Of a DNA stretch of 64,000 bases, positions 21,501 to 25,660 are shown piece by piece; positions within the stretch are counted from its first letter, which is position 1, and each line of letters starts with the position of its first letter. The notes below the pieces were generated by a model, which was not told the DNA's origin, did not search any database, and saw only the letters and a program-made list of their open reading frames with translations. The stretch comes from Avibacterium avium. GTDB taxonomy: Bacteria > Pseudomonadota > Gammaproteobacteria > Enterobacterales > Pasteurellaceae. The translations under genes and the position numbers were made by a program. The stretch spans positions 989,501-1,053,500 of the forward strand of contig NZ_UGSP01000001.1 in assembly GCF_900454535.1 (NCBI RefSeq), read 5' to 3'.

Positions 21501-22484
21501 TTACACAAGATTGTTTTTCTTCAATAAATCCATCATATATTGACGGCTATCGTTTGATACTTTACGCACATCAAGCTCCACACCCATTGCATCAATGGCT
21601 TTGAATGCGTCAATGTCTTTATCATCAACAGATACCGCACTGGTAATCATTTTCTTACCGTCTTTATAAGCCATACCACCAATGTTGATAGATTTCATAT
21701 CTAATCCTGCTTCTAGCAGTTTTAATACATCTGTTGGATTGGTGAATAATAACATCATACGCTCGCCCGCATATTCAGGATTGTTATAAACGCGGATCAT
21801 TTTATCTACGCCCACAACGTGTGCGGTTACTCCCGGTGGCGCAACGCTTTTCAGCATTGTTGAACGCACGCTATCTTTCGCCACATCGTCATTCACGACC
21901 ACAATGCGAGAAACTTTGCTTTCTTTTGTCCAGCGTGTTGCTACTTGACCGTGAATTAAGCGGTCATCAATACGCGCAAGCCCAACAACAAGATGACCTT
22001 CTTTATTTGGTGTAACCACTTCAGATTGGCTTGGTGCAGGGGCTGCTTGAGCAACGGCTTGCGGCGCTTGCTCTGGCTCTTCTTCCACATATCTTAAGGC
22101 ACGCACACCAGTACGGCCTGTTTCTAAGGCAATCGCCACCAGTTCTTGCAAACTTGGGCCATCATCACGCGCCATAAAGGTTTCCACCAACATTGGCACG
22201 TTTACCCCAGTCACAATATCCATATTGTCTTTGCCTTCCGATACACGGTTCGCCGCATTAAACGGACTGCCGCCCCAAGTATCAACAAGGAATAAGACTT
22301 CATCACAATGTGATAGGGTTGTGCTGAGTTTTTCCTGATATTTCGCCATAATCGTTTCAGCGTTTTCGCCGGGAACAAAATCGATCGTGGCAACGTTTTC
22401 TTGTTCACCAATCAACATTTCGGTCGTTTTGAGCAGTTGTTCTGCCGCCACGCCGTGTGTTGCGATGATGATCGCAATAGCCAT
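21501..22484 (-). CDS. manX: mannose PTS component IIAB (ManX)
   Basis: Cytoplasmic phosphocarrier, 327 residues. The IIA domain (about 1-135) has the first phosphorylated histidine in IIIATHGVAAEQLL; a Pro/Ala/Gln-rich linker (about 137-157) follows; the IIB domain (about 160-327) has the second in LARIDDRLIHGQVATRW. It is the first gene of the mannose operon, with TAAGGAGT before the ATG and a class II CRP promoter upstream. Expect import of mannose, glucose, glucosamine and related sugars. Confidence 0.96.
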   Translation of the reverse strand: MAIAIIIATHGVAAEQLLKTTEMLIGEQENVATIDFVPGENAETIMAKYQEKLSTTLSHCDEVLFLVDTWGGSPFNAANRVSEGKDNMDIVTGVNVPMLVETFMARDDGPSLQELVAIALETGRTGVRALRYVEEEPEQAPQAVAQAAPAPSQSEVVTPNKEGHLVVGLARIDDRLIHGQVATRWTKESKVSRIVVVNDDVAKDSVRSTMLKSVAPPGVTAHVVGVDKMIRVYNNPEYAGERMMLLFTNPTDVLKLLEAGLDMKSINIGGMAYKDGKKMITSAVSVDDKDIDAFKAIDAMGVELDVRKVSNDSRQYMMDLLKKNNLV

Positions 22485-22534
22485 AAGGACTCCTTATACA
22501 AGTGGTTATGGTTTAAGTTTAAAATCTGGCGCGG

Positions 22535-22577
22535 ATTGTATAGGAAAACACTCCAATTTAATGTGATTAAGATCACA
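22535..22577 (-). promoter_or_regulatory. class II CRP promoter of manX
   Basis: TGTGATTAAGATCACA (22562-22577) matches the CRP consensus TGTGA-N6-TCACA perfectly. On the minus strand a TATACAAT lies at 22542-22535, so start is near 22528 and the CRP centre is about 41 bases upstream, the class II position. Confidence 0.85.
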
Positions 22578-22763
22578 GTTTTTTGACAATAAGTAATAAT
22601 AACGCGAATTAAGTATCTGTTTGTTTAATATTTGCCTAATTTTTGTTTAATAATTCAAAATTATTTTTGCTCAGAAAAAACATTTCGATCATATTTCAAC
22701 ATATTTTTAACAAAGCATTATCCAACAAGGCTTAGCAGGCTCGCGATAAGTAAAAATAAATTT

Positions 22764-22794
22764 TGCGATCTAAATCGAAAAAATAAAGTGCGGT
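22764..22794 (+). promoter_or_regulatory. CRP-S (Sxy-dependent competence) site upstream of pilC
   Basis: TGCGATCTAAATCGAA (22764-22779) fits the CRP-S pattern TGCGA-N6-TCGCA at 9 of 10 positions and has the T-rich and A-rich flanks of competence sites. An uptake signal AAGTGCGGT (22786-22794) follows. CRP-S sites need both CRP and Sxy/TfoX and mark competence genes in Haemophilus. It lies about 80 bases before pilC, in the 375-base divergent region shared with manX. Confidence 0.7.
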
Positions 22795-22859
22795 ATTTTT
22801 TTCGCTCTTTTTTCTTGGTTAAGCTAGGCGCTATCTGTATTTAGCCCATTCATAACATA

Positions 22860-24089
22860 ATGAACAATCACAAAATGAAACTGTTTAATTGGCAAGCTAC
22901 GAATTTTTTGCAACAAAAACAACAAGGTATGATCGTAGCAGAGAATATTGAAATGGCGCGGCAAGCCTTGTTTCAGCGACAGTTGCAAAATATCAAGCTG
23001 CAACGCAACTGGCAATTTCCGCGTAAACCGAAAGCGAATGAATTGTATGAACTGATTAACCAACTGGCGTTACTGCTGAAATCCGCTGTGCCAATTAAGC
23101 AAAGTTTGCAATTATTGCTGCAGAATTGCACAGTGATTTCCTTAAATCTCTGGCTTGGGCGATTGATAGAAGATCTTGAAAGCGGTTTAAGCTTTTCACA
23201 AGGAATTGAAAAACAAGGGAAATATTTTTCACAGCAGGAACAACAGCTAATTCAAGTGGGCGAAATGACAGGCAAGCTTGCGCAAGTGTGTGAGCAAATT
23301 GCACAATATCGTCAGCAGTCGTTAATTCTGCAACGAAAAATCCAAAAAATCTTGCTTTATCCCATGTTGGTGCTAGGCATTTCCGTGCTTTTGACCTTGT
23401 TGTTGCTGATTTTTATCGTGCCGCAATTTGCTGAAATGTACGGCAATAATAATGCTAGCTTACCCGCATTTACCAAATTTTTATTACATCTTTCCGAAGG
23501 ATTGCAACAACATTTTTGGCAGCTTGCTTTTTTGTTTATACTGGTTTTGCTGTTTATTCGCTTTCGTCTAAAGCGTTCGGCAAAGCTAATAAAGTGGAAA
23601 AATCAATGTATCAATAAAATGCCAATTTTGGGCAAGATTACTCAATTAGCCCGACTAATTCGCTTCAGCCAAGCCCTTGCATTAATGCTGCGTTCAGGCG
23701 TGCCGTTAAATATGGCATTGCAATCTTTTTTACCGAAACAGCAAAGCTGGCAAGTGGAAAAAAGCTATGTGGCTGATCCCGTGCTAAATCAAGCGGTGGA
23801 AACGGCGTTATATTGGCTCAATCAAGGTTATAAATTTTCCGATAGCGTAGCCAGTGATTTCTTTCCAATGATAGCACAACAAATGCTAAAAATAGGTGAA
23901 GAAAGTGGGCAGGTAGCACAGATGCTACAACATATTGCTGATAAATATCAGCAGGATCTTAATCATCAAGTGGATCTACTTTCTCAACTGCTTGAACCTT
24001 TGCTAATGGTGATTATTGGCGGTTTAATCGGCGCAGTTCTGCTAGGAATGTATTTACCCATTTTCAATATGGGATCGATAATCCAATGA
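22860..24089 (+). CDS. pilC: type IV pilus / competence inner-membrane platform protein PilC (HofC)
   Basis: Inner-membrane platform of the type IV pilus used for DNA uptake, 409 residues. It has two GspF domains (about 55-180 and 265-395), each with the pattern LALLLKSAVPIKQSLQLLLQ or ALMLRSGVPLNMALQSFL followed by helices, and three transmembrane segments (near 165-190, 215-235, 375-400). No strong ribosome site is visible; an ATG at 22875 is an alternative. In relatives pilA and pilB precede it, but here the region upstream is only a promoter. It overlaps pilD by 4 bases. Confidence 0.9.
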   Translation: MNNHKMKLFNWQATNFLQQKQQGMIVAENIEMARQALFQRQLQNIKLQRNWQFPRKPKANELYELINQLALLLKSAVPIKQSLQLLLQNCTVISLNLWLGRLIEDLESGLSFSQGIEKQGKYFSQQEQQLIQVGEMTGKLAQVCEQIAQYRQQSLILQRKIQKILLYPMLVLGISVLLTLLLLIFIVPQFAEMYGNNNASLPAFTKFLLHLSEGLQQHFWQLAFLFILVLLFIRFRLKRSAKLIKWKNQCINKMPILGKITQLARLIRFSQALALMLRSGVPLNMALQSFLPKQQSWQVEKSYVADPVLNQAVETALYWLNQGYKFSDSVASDFFPMIAQQMLKIGEESGQVAQMLQHIADKYQQDLNHQVDLLSQLLEPLLMVIIGGLIGAVLLGMYLPIFNMGSIIQ

Positions 24090-24787
24090 TTACGCTTGCG
24101 ACATTTTTATTGGGTGGCTTTGTGGGGTTACTGATCTTTTTGTATATTGCCACTTTTACTCAACGGCTAACGCAGACCGTATGGCAAGATTATTGTGAAC
24201 TTTTCCAGCCACAACAAAGAGAAAAGCCAATGCCACATTCCTCTTGGCAGAATAAAAAGTGCGGTAGTTTTTTGTGTTATATTTTTGCCTTTGCAGGATT
24301 GTTTGTCTTGTGCGGCAAGCTTAATGCGGATCCTTATGTCGCATTATGGTGGGCGACTTGGCTAAGCTTGGTGATTTTAATCAGCATTATTGATTGGCTT
24401 TATCGATTGATTTCACCGCTATTATGCGTTTGGCTTTTCTTATGGACGCTGCTTGGCGTACATTGGCACATTATTTCGTTTTCGTTGGAGCAGGCTTTAG
24501 CAAGTGCGGTGGGAATTTTGTTAATTTTTTATAGTGTTTACTACATAAGCCAAATGATTTATCACAAAACAATGTTAGGTGAAGGGGATTGCTGGCTGGC
24601 GTTTGCACTTGGTGCAGGCATTTTCTGGCAAAAATTACCGCACTTTGTTTTTCTTGCTTGTTGTTATGCCATTGTTTTTTGTGGCATACAAAAATTGTGC
24701 AGGCGTGATGGACAACAAACTGTGCAACAAATTCCCTTTGCGCCGTTTTTAAGCCTTTCTGCCCTGAGCCTATTATTGCTTCGCTAA
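24086..24787 (+). CDS. pilD: prepilin peptidase PilD (short form)
   Basis: Aspartic membrane protease that cleaves type IV prepilin leader peptides. The 233 residues have about six hydrophobic helices and the two catalytic aspartates: D103 in IIDWLYRLISP and D168 in LGEGDCWLAFALG (GxGD motif). The N-terminal cytoplasmic methyltransferase loop with its two CxxC pairs is reduced, as in other Pasteurellaceae PilD/HofD proteins. The ATGA overlap with pilC implies translational coupling. Its pilin substrates are not in this window. Confidence 0.88.
   Translation: MITLATFLLGGFVGLLIFLYIATFTQRLTQTVWQDYCELFQPQQREKPMPHSSWQNKKCGSFLCYIFAFAGLFVLCGKLNADPYVALWWATWLSLVILISIIDWLYRLISPLLCVWLFLWTLLGVHWHIISFSLEQALASAVGILLIFYSVYYISQMIYHKTMLGEGDCWLAFALGAGIFWQKLPHFVFLACCYAIVFCGIQKLCRRDGQQTVQQIPFAPFLSLSALSLLLLR

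Positions 24788-24828: not shown

Positions 24829-25660
<832 letters not shown>

Follow-up and report, generated by a model that had tools for sequence, protein, structure and literature searches.

A genus-wide and very probably old split of the pilABCD competence operon in Avibacterium, with a CRP-S-type site before each half

In Avibacterium avium, pilC and pilD stand apart from pilA and pilB, an arrangement that very probably reflects an old, genus-wide rearrangement in the ancestor of Avibacterium, after which both halves of the operon kept or regained Sxy/CRP-type control, and not a loss of genes. We analysed the pilC-pilD locus within a stretch of 64,000 nucleotides of contig C1 (C1:989501-1053500), referred to here as the window. 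An initial annotation of this DNA had described pilA and pilB as missing. This holds at the window locus, where neither gene lies upstream of pilC, but it fails genome-wide, as both are intact elsewhere on C1. The four genes thus do not form a contiguous operon in this strain, with pilAB and pilCD separated by about 1 Mb.

The identity of the two genes in the window is supported by domain searches. PilC matches T2SSF (PF00482) in two stretches at 5e-48, as expected of a platform protein of the PilC/GspF type, and PilD matches Peptidase_A24 (PF01478) at 1e-13 and carries a GEGD motif in its translation, as expected of a prepilin peptidase. There are two candidate ATG codons for pilC, at 22860 and in frame at 22875, the second of which better fits the usual PilC start (MKLFNW). 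As the initial annotation had it, the genes lie behind a divergent intergenic region of 375 bases shared with manX (22485-22859). The order dnaQ-rnhA-manA-yobD-manZYX is common to the window strain, Necropsobacter, and Caviibacterium. A search of the manX-pilC intergenic region for a 3' remnant of pilB revealed no trace of one, and no near-identical plasmid copy of the pilC-pilD locus was found.

Table 1. Features of the pilC-pilD locus (window positions) and the separate ampD-pilA-pilB block
Feature	Position	Strand	Description or basis
manX (PTS mannose EIIAB)	21501..22484	-	leads divergent manXYZ-yobD-manA run
CRP-N site TGTGATTAAGATCACA of manX, canonical	22562..22577	.	sequence; alignment with other genera
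CRP-S site TTTTGCGATCTAAATCGAAAAA of pilC-pilD	22761..22782	+	28.6 bits, top score in window
Uptake signal sequence (USS) core AAGTGCGGT	22786..22794	+	3 bases past CRP-S site; exact in 6/7 Avibacterium
Possible -10 element TAAGCT, weak	22820..22825	+	alignment and inference; relatives TAGGCT/TAAGCT/TAAAAT
pilC	22860..24089	+	inner-membrane platform protein of DNA-uptake pilus; likely start 22875
pilD	24086..24787	+	prepilin peptidase; 4-base overlap with pilC
coaE	24835..25464	+	neighbour 3' of pilD in ancestral order
ampD-pilA-pilB, window strain	L072:8518-11079 (C1 ~12.5-15.1 kb)		counterpart in Avibacterium sp. 21-586 (G027): L076

CRP-S sites are of the type TGCGA-N6-TCGCA, with C/G where CRP-N sites have T/A. 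The sequence TGCGATCTAAATCGAA is found at 22764-22779, 80 bases 5' of the ATG at 22860, which bears out the promoter site described earlier. Scoring of the 64-kb window with a weight matrix based on eight CRP-S sites published for A. paragallinarum, not counting those of pilC, pilQ, and crp, gave 28.6 bits for this site, followed by 19.7 bits within manX coding sequence and then 4.6 bits. The second match (22458-22479) was dismissed, as it encodes part of manX (MAIAIIIA) and is conserved with the protein. A CRP-S-like site stands at the same place before pilC in all seven Avibacterium genomes, and the block formed by the CRP-S site and the USS is among the best-conserved stretches of the intergenic region when the seven species are aligned. 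With a site of this type 5' of their transcription unit, pilC and pilD are predicted to be under Sxy/CRP-S control. It is possible that TAAGCT acts as the -10 element, which would place the centre of the CRP-S site near -60.

On the side facing manX, the intergenic region can be aligned to the DNA upstream of manX in Necropsobacter and other genera, including the CRP-N site. In the other genera checked, there is no CRP-S site 5' of manX at the pilC-side position, and none above background precedes pilC in Necropsobacter or in genome G039, in both of which pilB and pilC are adjacent. From this empty place 5' of manX, we infer that the pilC site was gained at the junction, where it would have arisen or been copied in as a feature new relative to those genera. 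An ancestral CRP-S site already present upstream of manX was rejected for the same empty place. A particular form of copying, in which the split is real but the whole block was duplicated and the second pilAB lost, so that pilC is now served by a duplicate of the pilA promoter, strikes us as rather unlikely. Both promoters do present a CRP-S site, a USS, and a T-run in this order, a CRP-S-USS layout is typical of pilA promoters across the family (30 loci), and Necropsobacter G100 has a second pilB at the same place, just before pilC (L078:6825-10279, the two copies flanking an unrelated frame of 767 aa). However, the likeness between the two promoters does not extend 5' of the CRP-S site, and 3' of it amounts to what the USS itself gives; moreover, the Avibacterium comM and rlmN promoters also have adjoining CRP-S and USS elements, and hence the layout is not specific to pilA.

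Across the pilA promoters (L034-L063), which include one pilB promoter (from genome G082), the USS core begins 0-1 base past the CRP-S site, with an exact match in 20 of the 30 and at most one mismatch in 27. Such CRP-S and USS pairs would be expected about 0.04 times from the genome density (14 sites, one genome), and exact pairs number three in the window strain and four in the Avibacterium genome G028. The USS adjoins the CRP-S site at comM and rlmN as well, and follows it after 3 bases at Avibacterium pilC.

A junction-gained site that works in pilC-pilD expression remains our reading, and it is very unlikely that Avibacterium pilCD is driven mainly by other means, with the CRP-S-like site being decorative. 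This would fit the low pilC scores in A. paragallinarum (19.5 bits) and Avibacterium sp. 21-586 (17.5 bits), and because of these weak sites Sxy dependence of pilC is less sure in these two species. Against it, the other five genomes score 28.6-32.1 bits at the same place, where the window background is below 5 bits outside manX coding sequence, and G082, from another genus, gained such a site independently.

A search of the window strain's own genome found a single PilB, and located pilA and pilB, with both frames intact, at about 13.2-15.1 kb of C1. Upstream of pilA lies the divergent ampD, and pilA has a CRP-S site of its own, TTTTGCGATCGAGATCGAGAAA. Since pilA has this site next to ampD, the promoter before pilC is not the one that pilA left behind. 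Sites at the pilA promoter were noted in all seven Avibacterium genomes; a CRP-S-like site precedes pilA in the six for which the pilA start and the scan of its promoter were readable, G023 being among them by way of its pilB locus. Downstream of pilB in the window strain is a 134-aa orphan frame (L001:2519-2923), which, judged by eye, resembles the end of a glycosyltransferase and has no Pfam match.

We located PilB and PilC in 140 Pasteurellaceae genomes and took adjacency from the two tables. The genes pilB and pilC are apart in 7/7 Avibacterium (the set includes A. gallinarum, A. endocarditidis, A. paragallinarum NCTC 11296, and Avibacterium sp. 21-586) and in G082, and adjacent on one strand in the other 132. 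Thus, of the two possibilities raised by the initial annotation, the split operon is the one borne out, and the finding of pilAB elsewhere in the same split form throughout the genus speaks against loss. Deletion of pilA and pilB in the window strain, with pilC taking over the pilA promoter and competence gone, would account for the lack of both genes upstream of pilC, but is virtually excluded, as the genome has undamaged copies of both at another place, behind a CRP-S site of their own, and all congeners, one of which transforms, have the same split. In G082 (Pasteurellaceae genus g22), the operon is in three pieces, ampD-pilA, pilB alone, and pilCD, with CRP-S-like sites of 18.3 bits at pilA, 30.3 bits at pilB, and 32.1 bits at pilC. 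Like Avibacterium, this genome has pilC-pilD alone behind a CRP-S site; unlike Avibacterium, pilA and pilB are also parted from each other, and a gltX gene and a tRNA gene lie 5' of pilCD. The G082 split is an independent event. Pasteurellaceae have therefore seen at least two breakages of this core competence operon, and in both lineages its pieces kept or regained predicted Sxy-type CRP sites, so that repeated breakage offers a natural test of the strength of selection on co-regulation.

The initial annotation had also raised doubt about competence. All tested strains of A. paragallinarum are transformable, and in this species pilA/pilB (HHJ57_07795/07790) and pilC/pilD (HHJ57_07620/07615) are separate units, each with a predicted CRP-S site at its first gene (PMC10269479). 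The same paper makes no comment on the split, and the word "operon" does not occur in it. The window strain resembles A. paragallinarum in having the split and a separate predicted CRP-S site at each of pilA and pilC; the two differ in the place of pilAB, which in A. paragallinarum occupies the ancestral ampD-rppH site at a distance of 33 kb from pilCD, whereas about 1 Mb separates the two halves in the window strain. Domain searches of the window strain detected TfoX_N (Sxy) at 5e-18 and ComEC (rec2) at 2e-47, and CRP-S sites were found beside pilA, pilC, radC, comM, dprA, rec2, comF, comE1, ssb, ligA, rlmN, and comA. The genome thus encodes Sxy together with DNA-uptake genes (pilA, pilB, comA, comM, dprA, comF, comE1, and others), and carries the 9-base USS core 1,496 times, as compared with 79 for the reversed control. 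To judge from its gene content, nothing points to lost competence in this strain, and the split does not appear to be a sign of loss. A separated pilCD is not evidence of lost competence, and annotators should not infer loss from one locus.

The organization of H. influenzae pilABCD (HI0299-HI0296) is similar in having the same four genes, a divergent ampD before pilA, and CRP-S control; Avibacterium differs in the cut between pilB and pilC and in the CRP-S site on each half. A coaE gene 3' of pilD is shared by the Pasteurellaceae relatives examined. The ancestral order, as seen in Necropsobacter rosorum and Caviibacterium, runs dnaQ, manA, yobD, manZYX (-), further genes, nadK, grpE, tadA, thyA, lgt, tauE, rppH, ampD (-), and then pilA-pilB-pilC-pilD-coaE-alsT-hpf (+); the nadK-to-ampD run was read in N. 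rosorum, and in Caviibacterium only nadK-grpE and ampD-hpf were. Gene names here and in the CRP-S list come from recognition of the translations. In Avibacterium, this run is interrupted after pilB: the left block, ending in that gene, has departed as a unit, and manX and pilC have thereby become divergent neighbours. The step may have been a transposition, inversions, or a duplication with loss. Outside the window strain and Avibacterium sp. 21-586, the displaced block remains in one piece in the Avibacterium species, and lies 33 kb off in A. paragallinarum, as given above. Acting at two promoters, CRP and Sxy would then induce pilAB and pilCD jointly, and the pilus, with its pilin PilA, motor PilB, platform PilC, and prepilin peptidase PilD, would still be built under competence conditions. 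In the window strain, the ampD-pilAB block, now a divergent allele, would later have undergone replacement or a second move.

In the window strain and Avibacterium sp. 21-586, ampD-pilAB is found between ushA and DUF3108-trpS, and not in the ancestral place. Identity between the window strain and G028 is 72% for PilB, as against 97% for PilC and 95% for coaE, and pilC and its neighbours in the window strain and Avibacterium sp. 21-586 are 94-97% identical to those of close congeners. ComA (50%), ComB (31%), and ComE1 (66%) are likewise divergent between the window strain and G028, while the flanking genes are 96-98% identical (L229/L255, L232/L248); these three look exchanged or fast-diverging. 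In the PilB tree, Avibacterium forms one clade (99/95), and an origin of PilB from outside the genus is thus not supported. Within this clade, A. paragallinarum joins G023, G024, and G028 (93/95), with the window strain and Avibacterium sp. 21-586 apart, in conflict with the PilC identities. Searches with tblastn found no ampD-pilAB remnants at the ancestral zitB-rppH site of these two genomes, and none at the DUF3108 site in the remaining Avibacterium species. The likeliest explanation is that old alleles were exchanged among members of the genus; long-kept duplicates with differential loss are a less likely alternative, for which tblastn found no remnants. The case brings out the divergence among uptake-gene alleles of Avibacterium. 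As a tentative extension, which we consider doubtful, the split may have made ampD-pilA-pilB a unit swapped between Avibacterium species independently of pilCD. In that case, PilA, PilB, ComA, ComB, and ComE1 would pass between species as alleles of deep divergence, with pilCD and several DNA-processing genes tracking the species instead, and this traffic would perhaps influence the choice of DNA or partner for uptake.

Several further observations concern CRP-S sites and pil genes elsewhere. In the window strain and G028, a CRP-S-like site lies 108 bases 5' of an sppA-like protease gene (L225, L252), a gene absent from the published A. paragallinarum CRP-S list (PMC10269479). In Caviibacterium, a CRP-S site of 32.1 bits precedes two tiny predicted membrane proteins outside the known competence genes (L201:2450-2820), and in Caviibacterium G033, pilB and pilC are fused in one open frame of 882 aa (L202:6943).
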